From Azorinus chamasolen (taxonomy: Eukaryota > Mollusca > Bivalvia > Cardiida > Solecurtidae), in NCBI GenBank assembly GCA_963576725.1, contig OY755243.1, positions 41,649,243 to 41,713,242 of the forward strand: 64,000 bases of DNA, given 5' to 3'. This document shows positions 2,459 through 35,700 of this stretch, piece by piece. The notes under the pieces are model-generated. The model searched no databases and was not told the DNA's origin. It was given only the letters and a program-made list of their open reading frames with translations. The translations under genes and the position numbers were made by a program. The first letter of the stretch is position 1, and each line of letters begins with the position of its first letter.

Positions 2459-2980
2459 ACAGTAAAACCTCTCTATAACGGTCACTAAATTACATCAAGT
2501 ATTTTGTGTTAAAGAGAGGTGGTTGCTTAAAGCAAGATGAAAGTAAAACAGAACGCTCCTATACAAGTATTTTGTGTTAAAGGCAGGTGGTTGCTTAACC
2601 CTTTACCTGATAGAAGCGGCTTTTAGCGTGTTTGATTTATTCCTCCGCTGAAGAAAATAGTTCAAATTCATACAGTCATGAACATATTGCATAATAAATA
2701 TTTTCAAATATCCTAGTAGATGGTAGCTTAAAGCAGGCTGAAAGTAAAGCAGAATGCGCCTTAAGGCGCATTCTGCTTTACTTTCAACCTGCTTTAAGTG
2801 GTCATATGTCTTCAAAACTAGAAATAGGCTATTGGGTAAAGGGTTAAAGCAAGATGAAAGTAAAACAGAACGCTCCTATAGGAGCGTTCTGTTTTACTTT
2901 CACCTTGCTTTAAGCAGCCACCTGCCCTAAATACCAACTAATTAACACAATTTAGTGGCCGTTATAGAGAGGTTTTACTG
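2459..2980. mobile_element. Family A MITE, internally duplicated and interrupted
   Basis: The outer ends are standard family A (CAGTAAAACC at 2459, TTACTG ending 2980). Inside, the block from CAAGTATTTTG through AACGCTCCTATA occurs twice in tandem, starting about 2497 and 2565. The second copy is split by a piggyBac-like MITE at 2595-2847. The order of events is therefore family A insertion, then tandem duplication, then the TTAA-targeted insertion. Confidence 0.7.
2595..2847. mobile_element. piggyBac-like MITE with a Tigger-type core, nested in family A
   Basis: TTAA at 2595-2598 and 2844-2847, ends CCCTTTACCT and GGTAAAGGG. The internal palindrome is not the usual GCAAACAG core but GCTTAAAGCAGGCTGAAAG plus AAGCAGAATGCGCC, closely related to the core of the Tigger-like families. 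The target TTAA is the one in GCTTAAAGC of the host MITE. Confidence 0.7.
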
Positions 2981-2982
2981 TA

Positions 2983-3344
2983 CAGTGCTCCCTCTCTACA
3001 ACGACACCCTTTGGGATACGAAGATTGTATGTGTTGTTCAGAGGGAGTTGTTATAGGGAGGGAAAATCAAACATAATTAGCTTGTTTGCAAATCCCCAGA
3101 TAAGGTGTATTTCGAGAACTAAACCCGTTATGCCTCCATCAAACCCTATGTTGTGACCACTCTTTAGAATCGTCACAAAGTGACGATTCTAAAGAGTGGT
3201 CACAACATAGGGTTTGATGGAGGCATAAAGAAAATACGATGGAAAAAAGTTGTTTCTGAAGGCTTGTTGTTTCGGAAACAGTGACATGCGTTGTTGTAAG
3301 GAGGGAATCGTTATTGAGAGGGTCGTTGTAGGGAGGGAGCACTG
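2983..3344. mobile_element. Tigger-like element with CAGTGCTCCC ends
   Basis: The ends CAGTGCTCCCTCTCTACAAC and its inverted counterpart GTTGTAGGGAGGGAGCACTG are flanked by TA (2981-2982, 3345-3346). The left TA is also the right TA of the family A element ending at 2980, so the two abut through one dinucleotide. The middle holds the perfect palindrome at 3131-3225. There is no transposase ORF. Confidence 0.65.
3131..3225. repeat. Perfect 95-bp palindrome, family F
   Basis: Two exactly complementary 45-base arms (TGCCTCCATCAAACCC... / ...GGGTTTGATGGAGGCA) surround a 5-base loop CAAAG. Family F occurs in divergent form at 8513, 16606, 33439, 33774 and 35858, with no shared end or target sequence that I can define. 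The loop differs from the GCTCCTATAGGAGC centre of the other families. Confidence 0.8.
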
Positions 3345-3346
3345 TA

Positions 3347-5955
3347 GTATGTTTAATCCTTTTCATTAAAAAGTCTGTGATAAAATGACTTGAGAAATGC
3401 TTACATATCCAGTATTTACAAGGTTAGTAGACTGTGTGATATTCAAATATAATGATTTAGTATGTCAGTTGTTGTGGATTTAACCATATCAGTATGAAAC
3501 ATTAGTTGATTGGTAAGATTGTCTTGTTAATAGGCTGTACATACTAATCATAATCTACTAGTAACAACTGAATTATATGGGTGCATTGAGTGTAATACAA
3601 TAAAATGGAAACCACAAGTAAATAGAATTGTGTCAAATAGATGCAATAAAAATTTAAATGTCATTTAACCCTTTCCCTCTCAAATATTCATGCATGAAAA
3701 AGAGTTTGAACGAAGGAAGGGGTTACAAGAAGTGTTTATTGGGGGGTCTTTAACCCATTCCCTGATAGAAACACCTTTTCACGCCTATGCAAACAGATAA
3801 GACCAAGATCAGGATCCTTTGATCAGGGTCCAATAGGAGCTGTCTGGGTCTGCTATATTGGCTTCCAAACTAATACACATTTGATTCTATACTTTTTGCC
3901 ATGGTCAAAAAAACTGTGTTCATATCCAGCTAATCAATATTCATGATGTCATTATTTCTTACATGAATATTCATCTGGTAAAGTCTGGTGATGACTTATG
4001 TGGGTTGAAAAGTATTGGAGAAATGTACCACCAAGAGCTTTCTGCATGTTCAGCATTAACCCTTTACCTCAGGAAAAGTCATGCTAGAAATAATGTACAG
4101 ACATCTACTCAATATTAACCCTTTCCTCCAGGAATACTCATGAAAGAAATACATGTAATGACTTTATGAATATTAATTAGATTAATTTGTTAAAGTTACA
4201 AATAGGCAAAGGAAGTTTTGGCCATAGCAGAAACTGTAGAATTATATCAACGTTATATCATAAGCAAGCAGAGCAGACCCTGATCAGATGGCTCCTATAG
4301 GAGCCATCTGATCTGGGTCTACTCTGTTTGCCTAGGTGTAGAAAAGCGTATTTATGGATTAAAGGGTTACAATGGCTACATCAACAAGGGGTATTTTTGA
4401 CCATGGTAGAAACTGTAGAATCAGATTTATGTTATTTCATCAGTTGTCTGATCTGGGTTTACACTGTTTGCAAAGGCATCAAAAGGTGTCTCTACCAGGT
4501 AAAGGGTTAAGCAGCCACCTGCTTTAGAAGACTGAGTGGCGTCAAAGGACATTTTCTTCTACATTTTGATGTGTCATATAAACACTGCCAGCTAAGTTAA
4601 ATCTGGAAAACTATTAACCCTTTCCCTATTGCAAACAAAGCAGGTTGTATAACTACTTAAGGAGCCATCTGATCTTGGTCTACGCCGTTTGCAAAGGTGT
4701 GAAGACTTTAATGGAATGGTACTATTTGCAATATGTGTATTTATGTCTCTTTCACTGAATATAAGGCAAGGCTGTCCAATTTGTAACATTACAAAGCTAA
4801 GCATAGTCATAGATATACTGTCTCGCATTATGCATGATACGTTACTACAATTTTTTTTTTACATACTGCTTCTTTTCATTCATCAAGACAAAAGTCATAT
4901 ATGGCTGACACTACATGGAAATTAAACAGATGTCTTCAAAGCTGCAGTGAAAAAATGATATCTTGACAGGTTTTGCAGTGAGGGCGTGCAAAAACAGTGT
5001 AGTGAAAAACAGTGCAAACCCTTAGCAGAGAGAGAGAGGATATCAGAAGTCATTTGCCGATGCAGAAATTGATTGAATGGTCCATCATTGTTAAACTACA
5101 GAGCCCATTCAGTATGAATGTATAATTTGTGAGAGGATTTGAGTGACAAACAATGTAGACCCTGATCTGAAGACAGCCCTCTATCTGGATTTACACTGTT
5201 GGAAAATACACATGGTTTCCCGCTTTCAATGACACAGAGCAAATCATTGTTTTTAAAAATATGTTATCAGAGTCAAACACTTTGGATCCTGATGAATCAC
5301 AAATTTACATGGTGTGATGTCTTATGTAGATCCAACCTGTGTACATACGGCATCACCATACAATGCAATGTCTTATGTAGATCCAATCTGTGTACATGGG
5401 ATATCACCATACAAGGCTATCACCATACACGGGTAACAGCATACAAGCATTTCAATTTAAATGAACACCAGAAATGATTCATACAAGGCCAGTATAAGCA
5501 AGAGCCTTCGTACACTTTTATCATGACATTTTTTAGGTAAAATGAGGATTATTACCAAATTTACGTAAATAAAGCTTCAAAGCAGTACAACACAAACATT
5601 CCTGAAATAAAAATTAAGTTCCAATTCAAGTGATTCCAACATACTGTTCCCAGTCGCCAACTAGTGTGACGGGTGGGGTTACAAGAGATGGACGGAAACT
5701 ACAAACAAAAGGAATAGCAAATCTCTTTGCTGTCGCAAAAACCCTAATATGGGCAGACATTGGAACTAGTGGAATCATGGGTCATGTCACACACTTAAAT
5801 GAATAGTATCTAGTGAAGAGGGAAAGAAATTACAGTAAATCATGCTAATCCAAGCTTTAAGTAAAGAACAATTGAGAACTTTTATAGGCAGGTGACTGCT
5901 ATATGCAAGATAAAAGTCATGCAGAAAACTCCTCTGCATTAACATGCCATATGTC
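3347..5955. other. Intergenic, decayed family C/D MITEs, no gene
   Basis: Recognisable remnants: a 60-bp minimal TTAACCCTTTCCC element at 3667-3725; family D starting at the TTAA of 3750; a reversed family D copy at 4114-4370 whose 4262-4333 hairpin is near-perfect; a fragment at 4615-4700; and GTAGACCCTGATC hairpin fragments near 5155-5205. Around 5320-5430 a short segment (CTTATGTAGATCCAA...TGTGTACA) is repeated twice. No exon candidates were found. Confidence 0.5.
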
Positions 5956-14929: not shown

Positions 14930-15163
14930 ACTCCATGAATATTCATGTAAGAAAACATGACATCATGAATTATAGATTATTATTTATAATGGCATATGAA
15001 CACAAAACATTTTGGTCATGACAGAAACTAGAAATTCAGATCTGTGTAATTCCACAAGCAAACAGAGCAGACCCTGATCAGATGGCTCCTATAGGAGCCA
15101 TCTGATCTGGGTCTACTCTGTTTGCAAATGCATAGAAGCCCACATTATGGAGTAAAGGGTTAA
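14930..15163. mobile_element. piggyBac-like MITE, family D, reverse orientation
   Basis: TTAA both sides; tail first (CTCCATGAATATTCATGTAAG), hairpin at about 15058-15127 with an intact GCTCCTATAGGAGC centre. Confidence 0.7.
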
Positions 15164-16167
15164 GCACCGCCAGGTTCCAAAGATCTCCTCATTCATTTAC
15201 TGTGTGGCCATTGAAGAGAACTTCTACAGTATACTTAATATATTTACAACATGTTGGATACAAAAAAATCATGTTTAACAATCCAGCAATTTTACAGCTA
15301 CACTGGTTCTATGAGAAAGTATTTTTTCTACAATGCCATACCATTTACCATTCAAAATGGGCCAATAATAGCCAATAAACAGCAGGTTTTTATTGTGAAT
15401 TTTGAGGTTCTTACATTCAAAACATTTTAATAGATCATCAAAGGAATTATAAATATCTCTAAATAGTTAAATTCACTCAATTACATGAACTCTGTCTAAC
15501 AAACGATAGAATGCTTGTACATGAATTTCGTAAATTCAAATTTGGACTAATTTGGATTGAAAATATTCAAAAATATATCAAACATACAGACCTTTCTCAA
15601 CAACTTCAGTTTTTAAAATGTATAGAATCTGGAACCAGATTGAAGTTAGAAGTCTTAACAAAATGTTTTATAATAGCTGGATCGAAGAAATAATGTTAAG
15701 TTTTCTCTAAATTCTCCATTGCCCAATTCATGATCATTCTATGCTTACGTCATGTGATAGCATTGCATATATGTTGTTTTAGATGAGACATAGGGTAATT
15801 CAGATACTCATCAGGGGCCTGTCGTGCAACCAAAATTATTGAAAGTCCTAATTTATGACAATACCGCTATTACTCGCATAGCAGAAATTATCACACAGTC
15901 ACATTCTACCATTTAGCCTACTTTGTACGACATTAACAATTTCAACTTCTTACACTGCGACCATCATAATTCAGAACTTCTGATAGCTTCAGTTGTACAA
16001 TCTTTTGTAAGACGGATCCCAAGATCTTAACTGGCACTTTTTGTGACTCTTAAAATTGGATTTTTTTTTTAATTTGAGAAGACACAATTTCTGCACAAAT
16101 TATTTGCTTTGAAGGCTAACATTAGGTTGCCCGAGACATCAGTTCCATAAATTACAAACTAACCAGG
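15164..16167. other. Intergenic, nothing recognised
   Basis: One of the few kilobase stretches without a MITE. The ORF at 15511-15693 has no recognisable domain and no splice context. Confidence 0.45.
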
Positions 16168-16426: not shown

Positions 16427-17058
16427 AACCACTTGTAAGTGATCACCTATTGAATAAATATGGGGGTTTATAAAAACAGAGAATTGCTTAACCCTTCGCT
16501 CCATGTCTATTAGTGTAAGAATTAATGACATCATGAATATCATTTAGAGGGGTCCAGAAAATATGCATAAATTTAAATATTTTCAAGGATAACTTCTTGA
16601 TTTCTCAACTAAACCCAATACTGTGACCACTTTTTAGAATTGTCACGAAGAGACAATTCTAAAGACTGGTCACAGTATAGGGTTTGGTGGAAAATGACGA
16701 TTTTAGTATTTGGGTATGCACGTTTATCTGTAGCTTTGATTTAGATGCATTTTTATAAGAGCAAATGAACAAAAGACTTGGAAACAATGACAGAAGCTGT
16801 ACAAATTTCTGTAAGATTATTTTTTAAGCAAACAGAGCAGACCCTGATTAGACAGTTCTTACACAGGAGCTTTCTGATCTGGGTCTACTGTTTGCAAATA
16901 TGTTAAAAGATGTATCTATGGAGTAAAGGGTTATTGCAGAACAAAAGAAATGCAGCTCCTACAGGAGCTTTCTGCACAGCTGTGGTCCTGCATCAGCAGT
17001 AATCAGTCTGAAACTCCCAGAGATATCTTTTGATTTGTTGATGTTGAAAGGTTTTACT
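16427..17058. mobile_element. Family B MITE with two further nested elements
   Basis: The outer family B ends are at about 16427 (CAGTAAAACCACTTG) and 17058 (GGTTTTACTG). At its internal GCTTAA a piggyBac-like element enters (CCCTTCGCTCCATG, about 16489) and leaves at about 16932 (AGTAAAGGG-TTAT). Within that, a family F palindrome lies at 16606-16690. The three layers give a relative age order. Confidence 0.55.
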
Positions 17059-17705: not shown

Positions 17706-20700
17706 CTGTAAAGGACAAAATTAGTACATCAATAGTCAAATAATTATGCTATCTGGGATGTATTTCTTTAACCCTTCTCTTGCTGAATTTTAAAATACAT
17801 TTTTCCTTCTTTACCCATGCCCTGTTGTATAATAACATATATATTCACTGTGCACAAGTATTTCACTGTGCAATCACTGCTGTAGAGTGCACTGGTTGCA
17901 CAATCAATTTGTAAATAGTGCAGACCCTGATGAGACAGCTCCTGCAGGAGCTGTCTCATCTGGGTCTTCACTATTTACAGGTAGGTATATTGACGTGAAT
18001 AGCAAGCGAAGGGTTAAATCTGCAAACAAATGAAATATGGTTTGCTTAGGTTTGGTTTTAATTGGGTTTTATGTTGCTTTAACAGTATTTCAGTCATATC
18101 ACGACATCCAGCTATTTACAGGTGAAGGAAGACCCCAGATGTTCTTCTGTGCATGGAACAAATTGCATTGTTTCGTGCACAAAAGAACATCCAGGTAGAA
18201 CCATCTATCTACCGCAAGTCAGCTGGAAGGAAACAAATATGGAAGTAGTAACAGATACATGTATTACCTAATCTGTATATACATTTGTATACATTTTCAG
18301 GCTACGCTTTATAGTAAGACAAAGTCGCTTGACACAAATTTCACTTCATGCAATATCTTTAAGTCCCAAGTTTTCCCCCTTCTTTTACTATATAAATATA
18401 TGTTTTTAGGATGAGCTCCATCTGACTATTTTTTCGGTAAGTCAAAAGTCATTTTCCAATTAAATTATTATCAGTGTTTGCATTGAAGTCACAATTTGAT
18501 CTTTCAATCAGTACTGATGATGCATGTCACAGTGATAATTATCATGGCACAGGTAAATCTCAGCTTGATGTTACAAATGCTAAAGCAGGCCAATTATGCG
18601 GACGGTTTTTCCCTCATATAACTGCTTTTTTTCACCCAATTGCAAACAGAGAAGTTCCAGATCAGACGGCTCCTATAGGAGCCATCTGATCAGAGTCTGT
18701 TCTGGTTGCTTTTGACATGATATAGATCTGATTTTACGGGTTTTGCAAAAGCAAAAACATTTCCTTGAAAAGTTTACATTATAAATATTCAGCTAATAAA
18801 TATTCATGATGTCAATATTTCTTACATGAATACTGAACATAGAAAGGGACAGCATTCTAACCCAGATTATTGTTATATATGTGTGTGAAATGATTGTTTT
18901 CTTGTCCCTGTTTATGGCTTGTGTGACAGACAGCTCACAATTATCCCTGTTGACCTTGTGTCCTATTTAATGATCATTCAGAATCCAGATTAATCTGAAA
19001 CTTGGGACACAGTCTTATATTGGTACAGTAAAGCCCCTCTAATGCGACCACCAAAAAGGGGCATAATTCACTTTGTCAAATGCAGGTGTTTGCTTAATAC
19101 AGGACGAAAGTTATGCAGAAAGCTCCTATAGGAGCTTTCTGCATAAGTTTCATCCTGCATTAAGCAACCACCTGCTTATGAAGACAGCCATGTTTGTTCA
19201 TTAAGTGGTCGCATTAGCGGGACTTTACATTGGTATATTGTAAGGACAGAGATTTGCTTCTCATCTGAAACTAACATTTTACAAAGACAAGAGTTCTTCA
19301 TTGTAACAATACAAACATTTACATTTTTATACACAAAATGAGTTTTACATCAAGAAACATACTTGAGCAAATACTCAAAATCCTTGAGTCGACTCAAATC
19401 AATTTTTCATATTTACCAACTAAAATTGTTTTAATATTATAAAACTAATTTGTGCCCAAAATATTAATTTTCTAAGATCTAGACTGATATTTAAAGTGTA
19501 AAATGGTAAATATTACTATGTCTAGATGTGACACCTTTGAAATAACAGGCTAAGTTGATTTATTACTTGAATTTTTGGAATAAGGTCCAGATATCATACT
19601 ACTTAAAACATACCACAAATGCAACTGGCTTTCAGCCTGTACTGTGGCAACCTAGACAGTGTGATTATTTCAATTATCCATGTAATGGTTAGCTTCATAA
19701 AGTAGGACTAATAACAAATTTGGTCATGGTATCTTAAGTAAGATGTGCCCAAAGGATTTCAGTATTTGTTCAAATGGACTGGGTATTCAGAGTGTATACA
19801 GTACTAGACACCATGTCTCTGACGTGATGGCCGATATTGGTCTGAAGACTGAAGGTTCATTTTTTAAAATTGACAATTTGTATGTAGATGACATGGCTAA
19901 CATACTAGTACTGTGAGTATTTTGCTGCTGTGTACCATTGCCCTCATGTGGGATCTGTGTGGGCTGAAACATGTGGTCCTCCTCATACTCTTCCTCCTCA
20001 TCACTTGGAATACCTCGGTGCAGATCCTCTATGTACGGAATCACAGTCATACTGCGTAGAGCATCCTGTCCCTCAGCGTGGGATGGAAATGGCACGATTT
20101 CAGAGGTTGGCACAAACTTCTTCTTGTACCAGCTGCAATAAACAAATCAATAGTTATATGTATACATTGAGCAGGACCCTGTGAAAATTGTAACTTTGGG
20201 GGTTTGTAATTAATTGTCATTTAATCTGATTGTGACTGCGATACTAGGAGTACGAAGCCCGCTCGGGGCGAACCATGTTGGTTCGCTTCTCGATTTTTGG
20301 TACCAGTCTGCGACAAAATGTTCGTCTGCCGGATTCACTAGTTGGCTGCGTTTTCTGCGTTTGTTTTGCGTAAAAGGCCCCAAAGAGGTAGTTATATATC
20401 AATTTCAAGTGTGTTATTATATATATACACAATACGAAAAGCATGTTTATTGCCAGATTTATATTTTAAACGTAAACGCCGTGTTTGTTGTGTTGATATT
20501 CATATGCATAGTACTCGGACATCCATGTTTCGGATATGATGATGTAATTTTGTATCATTGTGTAACTATGTAATGTCTGAGATTATGTTATGTAATTGAA
20601 TGGTTATATAGATTCAACCTTTAAATCTATACTCACACTGTGTTTATGTTTATACTTTCAGTTTGACGTGATTTTATCAGAATACAATGATAATCGCAGT

Positions 20701-23700
20701 ACACTCTTGGTCCTTTTGATATTCGTTTATATATACAACTACGAATCCGTCATAGTCAAACTCTATAGGAACTGTGCGGCTTATGTCTAGCAGTAACATC
20801 AACTGGACTTATGAGCAGTAGCAAGCTTCTTAAATACGTTCAGAAGAATTCTGAAATAACTGTGCCAGAATTTAGTTTTACGCCTGTGTGTGTTGCTGAC
20901 AGTAAAGGCAAATATCTCCAACGAACTAAAACTAACTCTGTTCAAGACAGAATTATTTGGTACTGCAAAGCAGGGTTGAAGTCGTCAAAAGCTGAGAAAT
21001 GGCTCACAACAAACATTATTGATTTGCGTAGAAAACATGGTAGCATTCATCTTTACATATGGCTTGGTACATGTGACCTAACATATAAAGAAGGGCGATT
21101 TATTTCGTTATCTGCAAATCCTGAAGAATCCTTTGAAGAATTGAAAGAAAATTACAGAAAAATCAAAACACTTTGTGAAACAAACAATATTAAAGTGACA
21201 TTTCTACAGATCCCTTACTATTCTATTCAGCTGTGGAACAAACATAAAGGACACTCTGACTTTGAAAGATTTAAATCAGATGATTTATCACTGACATCGC
21301 TTGTGGATCGTGCAAATGTGTTTATCAACGATATCAATACCCAGATGTCAATGTGTTCGCCAAAATTTTGCCAGGATATGGTTAGATCAAGAAAGGCAAA
21401 GAACTCTGCGGGACGCTACTCAATCAACTTTAATTTGCTGAGAGACGGTGTTCATCCTGGAGCGCTCCTATCGAAAGTTTGGTGTATATCGATCATCAGG
21501 AGAATATGCCAAGAATGTGCATAGACTTACTGTGTTTTCTCTCCTAGTAGGCTGGGATCGCCAGCCAGACTTCTGCGAACTGCTGTATCCTTTACATGAA
21601 GTTTATGTAGGCTGAGATTGCTCAGTCACTTGTTGGTTTCTTAGATAACATTTAGTAGGCTGAGATTGCTCAGTCACTTGCATATTGTCATTAGTAGACT
21701 GATATTGCTCAGTCACTTGCCTTTTGACTTTAGTAAGCAATACTTGTAGATTAACATTTAGTAGGCTGAGATTGCTCAGTCACTTGCATATTAACAGTTA
21801 GTAGGCTGAGATTGCTCAGTCACTTGCATATTAACATTTAGTAGGCTGAGATTGCTCAGTCACTTGCATATTGACATTAGTAGGCTGATATTGCTCAGTC
21901 TCTTGCATTTTGACATTAGTAGACTGATATTGCTCAGTCACTTGCTTTTTGACTTTAGTAAGCAATACTTGTATATTAACATTTAGTAGGCTGAGATTGC
22001 TCAGTCACTTGCATATTAACATTTAGTAGGCTGAGATTGCTCAGTCACTTGCATATTGACATTAGAAGGCTGAGATTGCTCAGTCACTTGCATTTTGACT
22101 TTAGTAGGCTGAGATTGCTCAGTCACTTGATCCTTGACTCTGATAGGCTGGGATTGCTCAGCCATACAAAATAACATAGACATATTTTCTCATATCAATA
22201 GAAAGGTTTATTAGTATAGATTAGCATGCACTCTTTTGAGACTCTCATTGGGCTTGATTTAAACTTTTAATTTTAATAGTTTATTCCGTACGGCATTCGT
22301 AAATGCAGCTTATCTGAAAGTGGTGTTTGTACATCAGGTCATTTTGTTCTAAATAATGGACTCAACAGATCAGGGTAAGTTTGATACAACTTCAGTCGAT
22401 GGTGCTGATCAGACGATTGTTGAAGGTCCTCGAGAGCGTACACTTACTGATAAGGGAAGAGAATGGCACATGCAGCAGCTGAAGGGTAAGTTCAGATCAT
22501 CTGTGACCAAGTGGCAGAGGTTTGCAAATTCATTCACCATTCTCCTATCAGACTGTAATGATTGTAGTGTCATTAGAGAAGAGAGACAGAAGCTTGACCA
22601 GTATTTTGATGATTTATCAATGATTTTTGATGAGATTTGTCAATTGGATATGGAAACACCACTTTCTGGAAAATATGACACTGTCGCAGAAGAACATAAG
22701 GATCTTATGTTGCGCATTTCAGATGCGATTAGGTTTTTAGAATCTGAGAATAGCTCTGTCAAATCTAGCAAACACTCAACCTTGTCTCGCAGTTCACAGA
22801 AAACAAAATTGTCTGCTGCTGCTGAAGCTGCATCGCTGAAAGCAAAATTAAGGTATGTTGACGTTGAGGCTAAAACAAGAGCAGAACTTGAAAAAATAGA
22901 AATCATGAAAAGGCTTGACATGGCAAATGCTAAGCTTGATGCAATAAAGTCTGAAGAATTACAATCTCCTAGTGTATCAGTGGCTGGAGATCTACCAGAG
23001 GTAGAGGTAGATAAGAATACCCTGGTTAAGAATTTCATTTTATCACAAATTGAAAATGAAACTGTTTCTCCATCTGTGCCTTTAGAGCCCAAGATAAACA
23101 TTAAGAGGGGCAGTCTGAATCCCAATGCAGGTGAGTTTTTACCTACTTATTCCTTTGTTGATAAACCCAAACTTGTACCAGATAATGAATCCACAAAATT
23201 ACAACAGAGTCTCATAGATTTGACCAAATCTCTTGCAGACCAGGTTTCATTAAACCGACTTCCCCCACCAGAGCCTAATAAATTCTATGGTGACCCAATT
23301 CTTTATCCTGCATGGAAGGTGGCTTTTGCAACACTTATTGAACAGAGAAAACTCCCCAATGGCGAGAAGATACACTATTTAAAGAAATATCTTGGTGGCC
23401 CTGTCTTGCAGGTTGTAGAAAACTATTTTCTTCTTTCTAGTGAAGATGCTTTTGAAGAAGCTAAGAAATTGCTAGACGAAAGGTTTGGTGACCCTTTTAT
23501 TATAGCTGGTGCATTTCGTGACAAGCTTGAAACATGGCCTAAGATTAGTGCAAAGGACGCACAAGGTCTTTTGAGGTTTTCAGATTTTTTGAAGCAATGT
23601 CTAGCAGCAATCAACCAGTATTCAAGTCTGGAAATCCTAAATGACAGTAGAGAAAATCGAAAAATTCTTTCGAAGTTGCCTGAATGGTTTGTGTCTCGTT

Positions 23701-26700
23701 GGAATCGAGTAGTTGCTAAGTCAAAGGAAGAAAAGGGAGAATTCCCGAATTTCAAGGTCTTTGTCGATTTTGTTTGCAGAGAAGCCAAAATTGCAAATGA
23801 TCCGGTAACCTCGTTGCAGTCCGTACGAGGGGTAAATGTTACTGAGGAGAACAAAGTAAACAAAGACTGGCGTAGACATCAATTTAAGTCAGACAAATCC
23901 GTTAGTGGTCGTTCATTTTTGTCGGGTACAGAAGAAAGTGCAAACTCAAATTCCACTCAGACTGTTGTTCGCAATACTTGCCATTTCTGCAAAAAGTTTC
24001 ATGATCTGGATGATTGTAAGGCTTTCCTTGGTAAATCTTTAGCTGAGCGGAAGGTTTTTGTTGGCGTCAAAAAACTTTGTTTCGCCTGTCTCAGGTCAAA
24101 CCATATCTCCAAGGACTGTAGGCACAGAAAGAAGTGCAGATTCTGTGGGAAATTTCACCCTTCTTCATTGCATGGTGATATTAAGCCTCATATCCAAACA
24201 GGTAATAGCAACAGTGGCACTGTTCCTGTCAAAACTGAATCTCCCAGCAGTCATAATACCCATTTGTCTCTCACTGGAACAGCATTTCTCAACAGTACTA
24301 GTTCAGTGAGAAAGTGCTCAATGATTCTGCCTGTCTATGTATCACATTGTGATGATCCAACAAATGAAAGGTTGGTGTATGCGCTTTTGGACACCCAGTC
24401 TGATGCAACTTTCATTCTGGAAGATACTTGTAAAGCCCTTGGCATATCTGGTGTGGAAGTGAAACTGTCCCTTTCCACAATGCATGCAGAGAATAAGGTT
24501 GTTGAGAGTCAGAGAATGAAAGGTTTGATGGTTCGTGGCTTTGATTCAGATTTGAAGATTCCACTTCCTCCTGCCTACACTAGGGATATTATGCCAGCTA
24601 ACCGCTCGCATATTCCTGAAACAAATGTTGTCCATTCATGGCCCTATCTGCATTCAGTAGCCAAACAGCTTGTTCCTTTGCAAGAGTGCGAAATTGGCCT
24701 TCTTATCGGATATAACTGTCCCAGAGCTTTGGTTCCGCGAGAAGTTGTTGCTCCTGAGGGAGACGGTCCGTATGGTCAAAGAACAGATCTTGGGTGGGGT
24801 ATCGTTGGAATTGTTGACACTTGGGTCTCTGAGAATGATTCAGTTGGTGTGAGTCACCGAATCGTATCATGCGAAATTCCTTCAGATGTTCTAGTTGACG
24901 ATATTGCGGGTCCAAGTTCTGTTTTCTTTTCATTGCGTACATCTGTAAAAGAGGTTGTTACTACAGATGTTCTCAAACTGTTGGAGCAAGACTTTCATGA
25001 CCGGAGAGCAAACAGCCAGTCTCTTTCTCAGCAAGAGTGTCGTTTCCTAACCTTGTTGGAACAAGGTATTAGTTTTAAGGAAGGTCACTATGAAATGCCC
25101 TTGCCATTTGTCAAGGAAGAACCTGTCCTTCCAAACAACAAAGCTATAGCTTTGAAGAGGTTAAACCAATTGCGGAAGCGGCTGGACAGAGATGAAGCAT
25201 TCCGTAAACATTACCTGGAATTCATGAAAGAGCTTATAGATAACGGCCATGCAGAGAAGGTCCCAGAAACAGATGCAACGGATAAGGAATGTCAGGTTTG
25301 GTACATCCCACATCATGGCGTGTACCATCCCCACAAACCCGACAAAGTTAGGGTTGTTTTTGATTGTAGTGCTTCTTTTCAGGGGGTTTGTTTAAATTCC
25401 TACCTTTTGCAAGGTCCAGACCTTATCAATAGTCTCATAGGGGTAATTTGTAGGTTTAGGAAAGAGCCAATAGCCATCATGTGTGATGTGGAAAAGATGT
25501 TTTACCAGTTTAGGGTATCTACTAAACACAGAGATTATTTGAGATTCTTGTGGTGGGAAAATGGAGACTTCGACAATGACCCTATTGAATACAGAATGAC
25601 TGTTCATTTGTTTGGAGCCAAGTCCTCTCCTGGATGTGCCAATTTCGGCTTAAAAAAGATGGCTGATGACCATGAAGTGGAGTTTGGGTCTGAAGTTGCC
25701 AATTTTGTTCGCCGAGACTTTTATGTCGATGACGGCTTAAAGTCGTTGGCTACAGCAAGCAAAGCACTTGAGTTAATAGAAAATGCCAAGACCATGTGCT
25801 GCAAGGCTGGTCTGAGATTGCACAAATTCGTCTCAAATTCAAAGGAAGTTCTTGGACAGCTTCCTTCAGATGATCTTGCAAAAGACCTGAAGGATATCGA
25901 TATTTCCCACGACTCCTTGCCCGTTGAAAGAGTATTGGGCAATTTGTGGTGTGTAGAATCAGATTCCTTTCAGTTTCGCCTTACGTTGAGTGACAATCCG
26001 CTCACTCGTCGCGGAATTATGTCCACCATTAGCTCAATCTATGACCCTCTTGGTCTTATTTCACCAGTTGTCCTGGTAGGAAAACGTATTCTTCAACAGG
26101 TTTGTGCAGATCGGGCAGACTGGGACGACCCTGTTCCAGAAGATTTGAGGACAATTTGGGAAAAATGGCGTGGTAGCTTGTTTCATTTAGAGAAGTTGAA
26201 AGTACCCAGATGTTTGAAATCGGAAGACTCGAATGAGATCGCACTTGTAGAAATGCATCATTTCTCTGATGCAAGCACAGTAGGGTATGGTCAATGTTCT
26301 TATTTGCGTATATTAAATACGACAGGAAAGGTGCATTGTAGATTTTTGTATGGGAAATCTCGTGTTGCCCCATTGAAACCAATGACAATTCCACGTCTGG
26401 AGCTCACTGCAGCGGTGCTCTCTGTCAGAAGTAGTGCAATGCTTGATCTGGAGTTAGAAATTCCTATGGTGAAACATTTCTATTGGTCTGATAGTCAGGT
26501 AGTACTGGGATATATTTCGAACGAAGCCAGACGGTTTCATGTGTTTGTGGCTAATAGAGTTCAAGAAATTAGAAGCCAGACCAGCATCCAGCAGTGGAAC
26601 TATGTTCCGTCGAATGATAACCCAGCAGATATTGCTTCCAGGGGTTCCTTTGCAAACGAATTCACCAACGATTCGATGTGGTTTCATGGTCCACAATTCC

Positions 26701-29700
26701 TCTGGAAACAGGTTCTTCCAGTCACAGACATGATAGACATTCCTTTGAATCCTAGTGACCCAGAATTGAGGCGTATAGAATGCTTTTCGACTGAGGTTAA
26801 GGAGTCTGATCAGTTTTCTTTGTTGGATAGCATTCAGTTCTTTTCTGATTGGAACCGAGCCAAAAGGGCAATAGCTCTTTGTCTAAGGTTCAAAAGAAGA
26901 CTTCTAAATCGCTCAGTGAAGAAACCAAAACTTCCCTTGTCTAAAGAGGTTGCTTTGGCACAATTTGTTCCTGTGACTGTCGACGAGATGCGCTTAGCAG
27001 AGGTTGAGCTTTTCAAGTTGGTTCAATCAAAGTACTTCCAGTCCGAAATCACCAGTCTTAAAACTCAAGGGATTACTGGTTTTCCATCTGACAGAAAGGA
27101 AATGAGAGCTCGCAAAGAGTTTTTGAAGAAGAGTTCACCATTGTATCGTCTGGATCCTTTCGTAGATTCAGAAGGGGTTTTGCGAGTTGGTAGTAGAGTA
27201 CAGCATTCAGATTTGTCAGAGATCTTGAAATACCCTACATTGTTGCCCAAACTTAGTCATGTGACAAACCTAGTAGTAGCTCATTTTCATGGCAAAGTCC
27301 AGCACCAAGGACGAGGAATGACTACAAATGCCATAAGAGCAAGTGGAATTTGGATCCTAGGTTGTAGTTCAGTAGTGTCTAGTTTCATTTCCAGATGCGT
27401 TGTTTGCAGGCGTATTCGCAGCAAGGTTCAAGGACAAAAGATGTCTGATTTACCCACAGATCGTACGGAACAAGTTCCACCTTTCACATATTGTGCAGTC
27501 GACCTATTTGGACCCTGGTATATCAAAGAGGGTCGTAAGGAACTGAAAAGGTACGGAGTTTTGTTCACTTGCCTTTCTTGTAGAGCAGTTCATGTAGAGT
27601 CTGCAAATTCTTTAGAAACGGACTCTTTCATTAACAGTTTGCGACGATTCATCGCAATACGTGGTCCGATGCGCCAATTGCGTTGTGATCGTGGGACAAA
27701 TTTTGTAGGTGCCGAGAGAGAGATGGATGAAAATCGGGTGAGAAATTTTCTTCTGCAGGAAAATTGTGACTATGTTCCATTCAAAATGAATGTTCCTTCT
27801 GCCAGTCATATGGGTGGTGTTTGGGAGAGGCAGATTAGATCAGTTCGGTGCGTGCTTGACTCCTTATTATTGAAGCATGGATCGCAATTAAATGATGAAG
27901 GTTTGCGAACATTTCTGCATGAAGCGGCAGCCATTGTGAACTGCCGCCCATTGTCTGTTGACAACCTAAATGACCCAATGTCTGTTACTCCTCTGACTCC
28001 CAATCATTTAGTGACATTGAAGTCTTCAGTTGTTCTTCCGCCACCCGGAATTTTTCAAAAACCTGATATCTATTGCAGAAAGCAGTGGCGACGTACTCAG
28101 TACATGGTCAATGAATTTTGGAATAGGTGGCGCAACGAATTTCTGCAAAATTTGCAAGTAAGAAAGAAATGGGAAACCCCCAAGAGAAATATGTGTATTG
28201 GTGATATTGTTCTTCTGAAAGAAGATAATGTCTCCAGAAACCAGTGGCGTCTTGGCCGCGTTGATGAAGTCTGGAAAGATGATGATGGTTTGGTGCGCAA
28301 GGTGGGTATTCTTATTGCTACTTGTAGTTTGGACGCTCAAGGGAAACGAAATCATCCCTTGACCTTTTTAGAGAGACCGGTGCACAAACTTATTTTACTA
28401 CTTGAATCCGAGGAAATCCCCGTCGAGGAGCCATCTTCTAGTCAGTAAGTATTGATAACATATGTATAAACTGTAAGAGTTGTTTTTTGAGTTTATTAAT
28501 GTGAAGTTTGATTTCATCACCAGGTTTTCAATACAACAGTATTAATGTTCATGTTTAATATGTATACAGTGATATTCTTTTACGGTGGCGGCCGTAAAGG
28601 GTCGCCCGTGCTTCATTCTCGGTGTTTCATTTTCTGGTTCTTCGGATGTTTGATTATCTTTATATAATACTCACTTGAACTTGTATATTACTTGATGCGA
28701 GGTCATATTAGTTAATGTCAAATTAGTAAACTAATTTGGAGGAGCCATGTGACTGCGATACTAGGAGTACGAAGCTCGCTCGGGGCGAACCATGTTGGTT
28801 CGCTTCTCGATTTTTGGTACCAGTCTGCGACAAAATGTTCGTCTGCCGGATTCACTAGTTGGCTGCGTTTTCTGCGTTTGTTTTGCGTAAAAGGCCCCAA
28901 AGAGGTAGTTATATATCAATTTCAAGTGTGTTATTATATATATACACAATACGAAAAGCATGTTTATTGCCAGATTTATATTTTAAACGTAAACGCCGTG
29001 TTTGTTGTGTTGATATTCATATGCATAGTACTCGGACATCCATGTTTCGGATATGATGATGTAATTTTGTATCATTGTGTAACTATGTAATGTCTGAGAT
29101 TATGTTATGTAATTGAATGGTTATATAGATTCAACCTTTAAATCTATACTCACACTGTGTTTATGTTTATACTTTCAGTTTGACGTGATTTTATCAGAAT
29201 ACAATGATAATCGCAGTACACTCTTGGTCCTTTTGATATTCGTTTATATATACAACTACGAATCCGTCATACTGATTCTCTACTGTTTGCAATGCCAATA
29301 AATCTCCTTGCTTTCTTTGTTTTAATTCAAAGGATGAAATCAAATATATGCATAATGGGCAAAGTCTTGCATGAATATTCATCAGATACTATTTTTGTTT
29401 TATAAGAACTGCAGAACTGTTTGATGACAGTGTCTATATAATATTATTTCCCCTTACAATGTACTGTGTGGAAGCTTGAATTCAACTGCAGAACCCTTAT
29501 TTATATACATATTCATCACTATACTCTACAACAGACTGTGAACATTGTCTCTTTACCTGACAGACCTGCATTTTAACCCTTTCCCTGTTCTATTATTATT
29601 TCAAATGTCAATACCTACTGAATATTCATAGACAAAATAGTTATAACGAAATATGGAAGGTGGAACATTGTAGCCATTTAAGAAAGTATAGAAACAGATC

Positions 29701-32700
29701 CATCAAATTCCATTAGCAAACAGAGCAGACCCTGATCAGACGGCTCCTCTAGGAGCCGTCTGATCTGGGTCTACTCTGTTTGCAGATGCGTGAAAACATG
29801 TTTATATGAGGGAAAGGGTTAATGCAATTGCAAACAAAGTAGACTCTGATGAGATGACTACTGTAGGTACAATATAGATCTGATGCTACAGGTTCTGCCA
29901 TGGCCAAATATTTCTGTGTTCACATGCAATTATAAACATTTATAAAATTTATATTCATACAGTTATCATTTCTCACATTAATATTTGCCAGGTAAAGGAA
30001 TCATCTAAGAATTGCTGCATAATAAACAACTGGAAATCAAGCAAAGTAGACGTAAAGTAACATGCATCTATTAACCCCTTCCTTCATATAATCGCATTTT
30101 CAGTTTTTTTTCACATATTTGCAAACAGAGTTGACCCAGATAAAATGGCTCCTATACGATTCTACAATTTTTGTCTAAGCAAAAAAAAAAATGCTTGAAA
30201 AGTTTTACAGTACAAAACTTCAGCTAATAAATATTCATGATGTCATTATTTCTTACATGAATACTGAACAGGGAAAGGGTTAAAGCCAAACCACCACATT
30301 ATAACTACTTCTATCGCAAACTTGTGATGACCTTCACATGTAGTTTGGATAAGAAAGAAGATTATACTCATACTTCTACTTTCCTCCTTTGCAAACAGAT
30401 TACCTCCTAATCAGGAAGCTCCTGTAGGAACTTGGTGGTTGCTTATATGTTATATATCTGATTCTGTATGGCCATGGCAGTATAACATTAAATCAATATA
30501 GACTTCAACAATATTTCATTCAAAAACAACAATATTTCATTCAATAAAGAAAAGGGTTAGACAAAAGGCGTAGCTTATGTTAGTCCTATTCATAATAGGC
30601 AGTGTCTTGCTTTAATTTCATGAAGTGAAGGGTCAAGAAGATGATAAATTTTAAAGTATGCCTACTGTAAAGAATGAGTCATAGCAGTAGAAATATGTTA
30701 CTATTAAGAATCTCTTAACCCTTTCCTCCATAACCATTGTGATAAATAGAGCATTTGCTCCTATAGGAGCAAATGCTCTTATTTATAAATCACAATGGTT
30801 TCAAACTACAAAATCTAAAAGAATTCCTTTTCTATGCTCCTTTTTGGTAGATTTAATCAAAGTGGTTGGATCTAAAAATAGCATATGCGGGAATGGGTTA
30901 AACCCCCCCCCCCCCCCCCCAAACAAATGCTTCTTCACACTTTTGAAAATAGAGTAGACCCAGATTAGGAGCCATCTGATCAGACTCTGCTTGGTTTGCT
31001 TATAAATGAAATTACAACCCATACCAGAAAATCTTGTGTACATATGCCATTATCATAATTGAGCTAATAAATATTCACAATGTCATTGATTCTTACATGA
31101 ATATTCAACAGGGAATTGGTTGATGTTCCAAACAATTATGTAGTGTACAATAGCAAGAAAAGGCTATGAACAAACTAGCATCAAAGGCTATGAACACAAA
31201 GTCACATTTCATGTACTCCTTAGCAAAAAGTAATGGAAAACAAACACTTACTCGTGTTGTTTTATCATCTGGATGGAAATACGATCCTCTGCCTTATACT
31301 GTAACATGCCTGTAACATACAAACATCAAAATTGTAGAAAATTCAAGATAAGTAACCCTTCTGATGTTTAGTTTTAAGACAAATAATGGTCAATCATTGT
31401 TTAACCTTTTAACCGATGGAAATGCCTTTTCAAACAGTGTAGACTAAAATCAGATGGCTCCTGAAGGAGCCATCTGATCAGGGTCTGATCTTTTGCATAT
31501 GGAATATAGTGGGGCCTCCATGGCCGACAGGTTGTAGTCTTTGACTGACAATCACTTAGTCCCTCATGCTGTGGTTCAAATCCCGGGTTGGGCATTTGGA
31601 TTTACAGTCAAACCTGTGTAAGACAGCCACCTTTGGGACCAAGAGAAACTGGCTGTTATATACAGGTGGCTGTCTTATAAAGGTTTCATTAGGGAAGAAG
31701 ATATCCTGCTAAGTATTGCCCGTAAACTGTTGACAAAAATTTCATGTATGTTGATATAGTTTTAATTATTTAAAAATACAATATTACATGCAGATGAATA
31801 TGTGGAAGTATGAATTAAAATCAAAACAACGAAAAAAACATGTAAGGTTTCTTTTGTACACATGTTCTATTCGCATCTCATTCTATGTTATGAAAACAGG
31901 TCAACCATATTCCCCATGCATTCCGAACATCATTTACATCTATAAATCTTTACATTATGAAAAATGAAGATCACTTTTTGAAGGGATACTATAGCTGTGC
32001 AGTCAGCGTCGTTCGCTCATGTCACGATATATGAAGCCAGGATGCCCTCTATACAAAGGCAGTTTTAGGGAGTTTCTTACTCGTTATGGGCTTGTTTGGT
32101 CAGTGCATTGCAAAATATTCGTCTTAAACATTTCTAGCATGCTACGATAATGCGAAAATATCCAACAATTTTAATGTATTTGTCCCTGAAAGCAGAGGAA
32201 GAAATTGTCGAAAGAAACTTTTCCTTCGTGAATCGGCGAGAAACTGCGAGATTTTGTTCGCTACCTCCTTTTCAAAGAGTATTTTAGACAAAGGGAAATA
32301 ATCGATAACTTCCGCATAGGTAATACGCGGCCTCGCACGCCGAATATCGGCGTTTTTATACAGGTAAAAAATGCTTTTGGGACCGATTATATGCGGCCGC
32401 TGGCCGCGTTTAACAGGTGGCCGTCTTATACAGTAAGTTTATATAGTGAATTTGCACGGGACTGTTTGAATGTGGCGCTCATATACAGGTGGCGCTCTTA
32501 TAAAGGTGGCCGTTAGACCAGGTTTGACTGTATCTTGTGATGAAGCCTTCCAGCTGGCTTGGGGTAGGTCAGTGGTTCTATCAGGATGTTGTCAGTAATT
32601 CATGAAATGAAAGTTATAAAGAATTTGTTTGTTTGTTTGTTTTGTGCACGAAACAATGCAATTTGTTCCATACACAAAAAACCTCTGGGGTCTTCATCTG

Positions 32701-35700
32701 CCTGTAATTTGGACGTTGTGATGTGATTAAAACACTGTTAAAAAGCACTGTAAAACCCAGATACAACAAGATGTGTTTGTGAAACACTATGGCTCCGATT
32801 ATCGCCAATATAAATTTGACCTTTGACTTTGATATATGACCTTGGCCTTAACAAGTCACCCCTTAACACAGGCATGCATAACAAATGTGCAATGGCTACA
32901 AAATTATCACCACCGTTTAAGTTGGGAACATACCAACCAACCAACAGACAGGTAAAAAATAATATGCACCCCCTCTCCTTTGAATTTTTTTTTTTTTTTT
33001 GGGGGGGGGGGGGGGGACCATAAAAAACTATTCACCCTTTACTGAGATACTAGATAATTCAAAACTGATCCTTAAGTCATACCTCTTATAAGAGTCTGTT
33101 ACAGATTATGCACATCTTACCTCGTATAAGAGTCTGTAACACATTATCTACGGAGTCTGGTATACTGTATTCTCCTTTACCTATATTTTCAAATAATTTA
33201 TAAATATTCTCTCCCTCAAATGGGTATAGGCCAGTGGTCATATTATAGCTGCAAATAGAAATGAAAAGTACATGTAGTTACTAGGGATGGAGAATCGGAC
33301 CAAAATCATAATCGATTATCGAATTGAATCGAACATTTATTATCGATTAAAAATCGATAATTAATCGAATACTTTCAGAGATTCTATGCATGTAAAGCTT
33401 GATGTAACAAGCTAATACCTAACTAAGCTTTTGTGTCAACCAAACAGTATGCTGTGACCATTCATTAGAATCATCTCGAAGAGACGATTTTAATGAATGG
33501 TCACAGAATACAGCTTGGTAGAGGCTTATTATAAAGGTAAACTACTTCATACAGTTGTATTCCCATTAAAACGCCTACAAAAATTACTGATGCTGCTGTA
33601 CAGATTATACAGTCAGTAATCGATTATGGCAAAATTACTATTGATAGTAAATCGAAAATACTTTTTCGATCAATCATCGATTATAACCGATTATCGGAAC
33701 AACACTAGTAGTTACATAAACAGAACCATAGATAACTTGATAAGGGGGTACATTCAAACATTGTACTAAAGTCTCCACTAAACCCTATGTTGTAACCACA
33801 CTTTAAATTATCTCTTTAAGAAGATTCTAAGGAGTAGTCACATTAACCCTTTACTCCATAAATACCTCTTTCTATGCCTTTGCAAACAGAGCAGACCCCA
33901 GTTAGATGGCTCCTATAGGAGCCGTCTGATCAGTGTGTGCTCTGATAACATAGATATGATTATACAGATCTCGCCATGACCCAAAATTTCTGTACTAATA
34001 TGCCATTTGAAAAGTGCATATACAATGTAATAAGTATTCATGGTATCATTACCTATTTCATGAATATTCATGGAGTAACAGGTTGAAGGATTTGGTGGAG
34101 AAATATTAAAATAAATTTAATATAGTCTTGTGTTGGGTATTCTCATGGTAGATTTTAAAATGTTTACTGGTTAAATTACATGTTGGATGGTTGAGGTGTT
34201 TGGAATCAGTTACACAATTGAAATTATATTTTGGCCTTTGATAGACATACAACCACTGAAAATGAAAATGACACTTTCACGTGGACTATCAGCCATATTT
34301 GATTCATTACATCATCCAGTATTCTCACGATATAGAGGTCTAACACAATTATAAAGATCTCTTCAAAAGCAGTACTATCAGGGAAGATAGCCATCCCATC
34401 AGGATTGAAAAAGTTTGACACTCGCACCATACTTAACCCATTCCCTCATATTGACGACTCTGTAAAAGTCACTTTGTGAAACCATTGTGATAAATAGAGC
34501 ATTTGCTCCTATAGGAGCAAATGCTCTATTTATCACAATGGTTTCAAACTACAAAATCCTAAAATTTTCATTTTCTCTAGTTAATGCTCTTTTTCGGTAA
34601 ATTCATTCAAAGAGGTTGTATCTAAAATAGCCTATGAGGTAATGGGTTAAACAATAGAAGAAACACATTTGTTACCTGCCTGCAGAAGTGTGATGTAAAA
34701 AGCATACCAGACGGACAGACAACGGAAGTGATCCCTGAGTGTCATCCTGCTAAAGCAGGTGACACAAAAATTAACACTTTCCCAGAGTAGACCCTGATCA
34801 GATGGCTTCCACAGGAGAGGTCCGATCTGGGTCTACTCTATTTGCAAAGGCATAGAAAGGCGTATTTAAGGAGTAAAAGGTTAAGCAGACAGCACATAAT
34901 ACAGATGATACTCTGCAGGCTAATATTTGAGGCTGAAATAGAGTTTGAACAAATGTACACATGTATAGCTGAATAAATATTTATACTATGTATAAATGCC
35001 CACCTTACTGAAGAGAAAACTAACCCTTTAGCTCCATGAATATTCATTAGGAAATTATGAATGTATGAAGTATCTGCATTTATATAATGGCATTATGCCA
35101 TTATAATAATACAGTCAATAAATATTCATGACATCATTAATTCTTAACCCTTTCCTCCATAGGCTATTTTTAGATCCAACCACTTTGAATAAATCTACCG
35201 AAAAGGAGCATTAACTAGAGAAAAGGATTTTTTTTAGAATTTTGTAGTTTGAAACCATTGTGATAAATAGAGCATTTGCTCCTACAGGAGCAAATGCTCT
35301 ATTTATCACAATGGTTTCAGAAAGTGACTTTTACAGAGGCTTAGAAAGGCGTATTAATAGAGGAAAGGGTTAAATGAATATTCAACATGGAGCGGGTTAA
35401 CTGTTGGTGCTCTATCTTATGCCACTATAATAATACAGCCAATAAATATTCATGATATCATTATTTTTTACATGAATATTCAACATGGAAAGTGTTTACT
35501 GTTTGTAAATTTCATCGAACGTTTCAGTTTCCTACAACCCATTTGTACACAGTTTCATGCAGAAGCAATCACTCACAGGGTTACACCGGATGACCACACA
35601 TCTACTTTGAAGCCCTTGAAGGTTTCTAGACCATTGGCTATTTCGGGAGGCTGAAATGCCGGAGAACCTTGACTGGTTCTACATGTGTCATCCACAGCAA

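Follow-up and report, generated by a model that had tools for sequence, protein, structure and literature searches.

Why should a BEL/Pao retrotransposon carry, ahead of gag, a gene of its own for a protein resembling the SGNH hydrolases? The question is raised by a 64,000-nucleotide stretch of the Azorinus chamasolen genome (contig OY755243.1, positions 41,649,243 to 41,713,242 of the forward strand; hereafter the window), in which one complete BEL/Pao element occupies positions 20231-29271 on the forward strand. Taken as one joint explanation, the probable answer is that the open reading frame (ORF) is an accessory gene of the element, encodes an SGNH-fold protein that is probably an esterase, derives from a long interspersed nuclear element (LINE), behaves as an exchangeable cassette and has a membrane or lipid role. 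The parts of the element are as follows.

20226..20230, no strand: left target site duplication, CTGAT, 5 bp
20231..20754, + strand: 5' long terminal repeat (LTR), 523/524 identical to the 3' LTR (1 difference)
20811..21524, + strand: SGNH-like ORF, 237 amino acids, ATG start, with S31, G55, C88, D212 and H215
20796..22254, + strand: stretch matching, by nucleotide comparison, the swapped cassette of the mosaic element L005 (SGNH ORF and spacer repeats)
21652..22161, + strand: array of tandem 39-nt units, each with a core, GGCTGAGATTGCTCAGTC, able to fold as a hairpin; non-coding spacer
22356..28448, + strand: gag-pol ORF, 2030 amino acids, with DUF1759, Peptidase_A17 and DUF5641 (Pfam)
28748..29271, + strand: 3' LTR, 523/524 identical to the 5' LTR
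29272..29276, no strand: right target site duplication, CTGAT, 5 bp

The intact 237-codon ORF and the near-identical LTRs described in an earlier note on this DNA are both real. The ORF begins after a gap of 56 nt from the end of the 5' LTR (20754) and is separated from the gag-pol ORF by 831 nt. The latter is of BEL/Pao type by its Pfam matches (Peptidase_A17, PF05380, expectation value (E) 8.3e-48; DUF5641, E 4e-25; DUF1759, E 6e-12), with weak matches to RVT_1 (E 0.2) and Integrase_H2C2 (E 0.002) that are both under the cut-off; of the features that define BEL/Pao, it has the Pao-type peptidase A17, LTRs (524 bp) and a short target duplication. An Rfam scan over 20231-22800 gave a single sub-threshold CRISPR-repeat match, on the opposite strand inside the SGNH-like ORF, which was taken as chance.

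The ORF is not a chance frame, since its product has 33 homologues at E ≤ 0.01 (best 3.6e-119) in a protein search, a profile search with the family reached 168 proteins at E 1e-5 (the best 120 of the 168 were listed), and an SGNH fold is predicted. Pfam and PDB sequence searches on their own were uninformative for the window protein. Structure prediction agrees with the SGNH-type fold proposed earlier: the protein is predicted to adopt an SGNH/flavodoxin-like fold, and the nearest folds to the model include platelet-activating factor (PAF) acetylhydrolase and Bacteroides acylhydrolases. The likeness to these enzymes is one of fold, at a low 13-18% identity, and classical SGNH enzymes have an oxyanion Asn (according to the available part of PMC3905857) where this family has Cys. 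Inspected by eye, the 237 residues show nothing that resembles a signal sequence or a membrane-spanning segment, and the protein would stand alone, probably in the cytosol.

The motifs lie where they had been placed, with block I ADSKGKYL (S31), LGTCD at 85-89, D212 and H215. Conservation in the family alignment is very high for S31 (62/63 rows), G55 (62/62), D212 (66/67) and H215 (67/67), and Cys88 is invariant in all 65 rows with a letter at the block III position. Of the SGNH superfamily features, block I Ser, block II Gly (G55, taken as such by motif order, not by superposition) and block V Asp-x-x-His are present and block III Asn is absent; because Cys replaces it in every one of these rows, the label "SGNH-like" is used, and the family, which is borne by retroelements, is here named the W-x-GTCD family. 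The suggestion that the Asn-to-Cys change points to binding rather than catalysis is weak: Ser, Asp and His of the triad are near-invariant, as is Gly55, and with Cys88 next to them the site looks like an active one that has been kept, the oxyanion residue being its variant part.

That the protein is an SGNH fold which has lost catalysis and only binds lipid or RNA is rather unlikely, though this reading has the universal Cys on its side, as well as the existence of inactive SGNH proteins such as Oskar (in the available part of PMC3905857), structures of which were among the Foldseek matches (ranks 41 and 47) of a relative borne by a Ty3/Gypsy element. However, the four residues Ser, Gly, Asp and His hardly vary even between highly divergent members from three kinds of element, binding alone would not require the triad, and the esterase of the zebrafish LINE ZfL2-1 is described as combining lipid binding with slow activity (PMC3905857, same part). 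The window protein is read as probably a slow esterase, its catalysis being a prediction.

The gene belongs to the element and is kept at the same position in its relatives. In the genome as searched (1.72 Gb, 137 contigs) there were at least 151 matches to the 237-residue protein and 143 to the reverse transcriptase (RT) piece of the window element. Four young, near-identical copies (L001-L004, L001 being the window copy) all have an SGNH ORF without a stop, and in L002-L004 homology to the window is continuous from LTR through SGNH ORF to gag. An SGNH match lies near the BEL RT, within a range from 2 kb past it to 12 kb upstream, at 11 of the 143 RT places (10 elements), always on the same strand (11/11), against about 0.18 expected with the 150 SGNH places among the matches listed. 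These SGNH-bearing elements include older subfamilies, with RT identity to the window of 54-100%. In a BEL RT tree of 20 rows (L067 and L087 are absent for want of an RT row) the five rows with SGNH group on a single branch (support 83/75), present in 81% of bootstrap trees.

At the remaining 132/143 RT places no SGNH lies nearby among the matches listed. Of the 15 SGNH-less rows of the RT tree, four were judged by the genome match listing alone and 11 (L058-L061, L088-L094) were checked through the DNA before gag. None of these 11 stretches had a convincing SGNH in a search that took the intact members from this genome and the collected proteins as queries (15 weak alignments at E ≤ 0.1, ten of them listed at E 0.019-0.094; L093 was partly masked), so BELs can do without the gene. 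Two elements near the window family have lost it: L056 has no usable SGNH gene, its gag start also being missing and its sole weak match covering the query lead ahead of the SGNH start, and L057 keeps only a 20-residue remnant.

The idea that the gene is special to BEL/Pao finds no support. The surroundings of 55 SGNH-matching loci were read, a non-random sample made up of the 30 best (L001-L030), 20 chosen to cover further subfamilies (L036-L055) and five near BEL gag (L062-L066). Downstream of SGNH lie BEL gag at 14 loci, LINE-type ORFs at 37 and Ty3/Gypsy gag at one (L052), with three unassigned (L039, L048 and L055; the SGNH of L048 is close to that of L044). Twelve BEL loci were assigned by tblastn; for L007 and L027 the assignment comes from coordinates, and in L007 a LINE-like RT separates SGNH from gag. 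The LINE loci were assigned by tblastn with ORFs from L008, L019, L021, L024 and L030 and their continuations; matches were short or to the first LINE ORF only at L014, L040, L047 and L051, and weak at L044 (E 2e-5), which does have a PHD finger.

Where LINE loci were read further (L019/L031, L032, L033, L034), EEP endonuclease and/or RVT_1 was found downstream of SGNH; beyond L021 (stretch L035) there was no frame of 120 amino acids. In seven of seven LINE copy pairs the match extends past the SGNH ORF into the ORF that follows it, and the gene is therefore part of those LINEs. By eye, the ORF after SGNH in L019, L008, L030 and L044 has a PHD-like zinc finger, which Pfam backs in L044, with a C1-like match in L030; the finger precedes the endonuclease in the L019 type and is on a separate ORF in the L008 and L044 types.

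In L052 an ORF with Retrotrans_gag, a CCHC knuckle and an aspartyl protease starts before the SGNH ORF has ended; RT, RNase H and integrase come after it, in the order of Gypsy elements. This gene has four open near-identical copies (97-100%, one matched from residue 18 on), and with L052 three of them were read and have gag downstream.

Loci of the Ty3/Gypsy family that has an SGNH-like ORF overlapping the gag start: L052, L099, L100, L101 (C4:90869844, C30:7818, C11:78187434)

The predicted model of the Gypsy-borne protein (predicted local distance difference test score, pLDDT, 90.4) matches SGNH esterases in Foldseek. The gene family is thus present in BEL/Pao, LINE and Ty3/Gypsy elements of one genome. 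The earlier note had named, as the case against its reading, copies that lack the ORF while it stands elsewhere on its own; the ORF does stand elsewhere, but in other retroelements, and no evident host gene was seen among the SGNH loci whose surroundings were read.

One BEL, L005 (C4), has exchanged the gene. It has its own LTRs (291 bp aligned, 99.0% alike), with no match to the window LTR. Identity to L057 (C8) is 97.7% in its leader (1323-1493) and 97.9% in its gag start (2954-3566), and the stretch between them has no blastn match to L057. This middle part resembles the window subfamily, at 93.8% nucleotide identity over 20796-21600 (SGNH ORF) and 85% over 21757-22254 (spacer repeats), and the SGNH dS between L005 and the window is 0.10, whereas gag and RT are saturated. 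L005 is a mosaic, with the flanks of one BEL subfamily and the SGNH cassette of another, and the gene therefore behaves as an exchangeable cassette. The simplest reading is that recombination moved the cassette between BEL subfamilies, probably by template switching.

The spacer in this cassette, before gag, holds about 13 tandem 39-nt units at 21652-22161, the core of which is foldable as a short hairpin. The spacer folds more stably than its shuffled versions, with a z of -3.0 against 20 shuffles, and three units have a z of -2.4 to -2.8. By Tandem Repeats Finder (TRF) and core search, the window cassette has the array in 7/7 of its spacers, with 4 to 13 cores each, vs 0/8 other BEL spacers, and the idea that it is general to SGNH-bearing BELs was dropped. 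Four of these eight (L015, L007, L027 and L057) have one or two core-like matches each (18-nt core, up to 3 mismatches; chance about 3 in 10,000 per kb with even base use). As these are rarely expected by chance, the array may have arisen in the window subfamily by multiplication of one older hairpin. A crude count of perfect hairpins over the spacers was uninformative, with only 3 found in the window's own array.

How did one gene come to be in such different elements? The SGNH tree has 69 rows and leaves out 11 near-identical copies, five partial external proteins, L066, and L025 and L028, which have no intact frame with motifs. All 10 BEL rows and 15 external rows (232-249 amino acids, 39-74% identity, open) lie on one side of a branch with support 59/86.7, or 75/85.7 once four rows around a long-branch join are removed; with three LINE rows added (L008, L011, L021) the values are 98/91 in the 69-row tree and 81/84.5 in the reduced tree. 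The remaining own-genome rows are LINE, Gypsy or unassigned, and the long branch of L052 prevents its placement. No locus encoding the external relatives was found in scans of viral contigs (with A1, P0039 and P0056) or genome contigs (with A1 and P0043).

Among rows of known context one BEL/LINE change suffices (L044 and L048 counted as LINE), and the largest W-x-GTCD diversity seen in this genome is ahead of the ORFs of LINEs, which are endonuclease-reverse transcriptase (EN-RT) elements. Tree depth among the LINE rows and the rarity of the gene among BELs favour, rather than prove, transfer from LINE to BEL, most likely once. Passage from BEL to LINE is unlikely: the tree is unrooted and a single change is enough in either direction, but the midpoint root and the depth fall among LINE rows, and 132 of the 143 BEL RT places have no nearby SGNH among the matches listed. 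In the favoured LINE-to-BEL direction, one BEL/Pao clade would have taken the gene and kept it before gag. A Ty3/Gypsy family bears another member of the W-x-GTCD family ahead of its own gag.

The recent selection that the earlier note proposed finds no firm case in the BEL copies alone. Against the window (n = 9), the ratio of nonsynonymous to synonymous change (dN/dS) of SGNH is 0.26 in L003, from 3 synonymous and 3 other changes, 0.40 and 0.59 in the broken copies L006 and L005, and undefined in six (two without synonymous change, four saturated); between BEL subfamilies it is saturated. LINE pairs (n = 11) gave 0.07-0.11 in six, of which two are at dS near 2 (one being L044/L048), 0.27-0.45 in four with few changes, and one saturated value. 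As BEL values are mostly uninformative, the case for selection on the BEL-borne copies comes chiefly from the conserved residues and from frames that stay open over their length in divergent members. Capture by chance as a passive hitchhiker, of no benefit to the element, would suit the uninformative BEL ratios, the 11 BEL copies in which no SGNH was seen in the DNA before gag and the loss of the gene in L056 and L057. It is nevertheless very unlikely, given the position kept in subfamilies down to 54% RT identity, the retained active-site residues, the 15 open BEL-branch proteins in other data and the low ratios in six LINE pairs.

Several points weigh against the joint explanation. The window protein has no GDSL match in Pfam; among 30 family members Lipase_GDSL was matched in three (best E 0.0099) and Lipase_GDSL_2 in one (E 0.042), and one LINE-borne member matched Lipase_GDSL_2 at E 0.00099 and 20.1 bits, under the 32.9 cut-off. 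The BEL branch is modestly supported in an unrooted tree, and its external proteins are known as proteins alone. The dN/dS of BEL copies is not decisive, and as gag in the broken copies L006 and L066 has a dN/dS of 0.43, SGNH shows no stronger constraint than gag there. Catalysis and lipid action are predicted properties.

Comparable genes, as described in the available parts of the papers cited, occur in several retroelements. Vesta LTR retrotransposons and Athena Penelope-like elements of bdelloid rotifers have a GDSL/SGNH ORF3 (PMC5408684), likewise an SGNH-type gene in LTR retrotransposons that is common to a different retroelement class. There the gene follows gag and pol, its invariant catalytic residues are called intact and the partner is a Penelope-like element, whereas here it precedes gag in a BEL/Pao and a Gypsy family, block III is Cys and the partner is a LINE. 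Esterase ORF1 (type IV) is found in CR1, L2 and RTEX elements, such as ZfL2-1 (PMC3905857, PMC4120745); within the Jockey superfamily PMC4120745 gives it to only two vertebrate groups, and PMC3905857 adds cnidarians and sponges. ZfL2-1 shares the SGNH fold and the place as first ORF of the retroelement ahead of the EN-RT ORF, a position held by the LINE-borne relatives, the window copy being in an LTR element. It differs in keeping Asn (N195) and in self-associating through a coiled coil. The family profile had 4 PDB sequence matches, and neither these nor the 50 fold matches listed included a ZfL2-1 entry, though the two may still be kin. Ngaro elements (DIRS order) of amphibians also have an SGNH gene as accessory, Hydro-SGNH, but after the tyrosine recombinase and in another element order (PMC9210276).

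A literature search that covered few subscription journals brought up no account of SGNH genes in BEL/Pao elements or ahead of gag; the "upstream of gag" gene in the available part of PMC2774666 is a caulimovirus integrase and not relevant. Accessory genes of this kind are known; new here are the element family that carries one, its position and the variant active site, together with direct evidence that the gene is shared and swapped. The published accounts, in the parts available, treat the LINE and rotifer-LTR esterase genes as separate captures.

What might the protein do? The ZfL2-1 ORF1 esterase has low activity, binds acidic phospholipids, is proposed to target ribonucleoproteins (RNPs) to membranes and is dispensable in HeLa cells (PMC3905857, available part). 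By analogy, a membrane or lipid role is the most likely function, in which the window protein would act on or bind lipids so that the RNP or particle of the element assembles at, or leaves, a membrane. A substitute for envelope, aiding exit of particles from cells or entry into them, might be expected where an LTR element carries an accessory protein that may act on membranes, and Rodriguez et al. raised this for GDSL ORF3 and then argued against it (PMC5408684, available part). It is improbable here, since the protein has no evident signal-like or membrane-spanning stretch, the gene is before gag and not after pol, and LINEs bear the same gene family. LINEs are not known to make virus-like particles.

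The membrane or lipid role has a wider, tentative extension, itself somewhat doubtful, that bivalve genomes share a pool of one SGNH-like gene with a Cys oxyanion site, passed as a cassette among LINE, BEL/Pao and Ty3/Gypsy elements and serving the same membrane or lipid step in each. If so, LINE and LTR life cycles would be served by literally one gene, ahead of the RNA-packaging ORF. One homologous gene before the packaging gene in three unlike retroelements of one animal genome, together with a BEL in which the cassette alone was swapped, makes testable the role of a lipid-acting protein in retrotransposition and the frequency of gene exchange between retroelement classes. The unusual SGNH active site, with its invariant block III Cys, is of interest to enzymology.

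Elsewhere in the window a 100-nt interspersed repeat has a palindromic centre such as GGCTCCTATAGGAGCC and is possibly a small inverted-repeat transposon.

Copies of the 100-nt repeat: 15063-15164, 16833-16934, 17916-18017, 18647-18748, 29721-29822, 34783-34884

In addition, a 614-codon frame with a TTG start at 47011-48855 is by eye not transposon-like and is perhaps a host exon.
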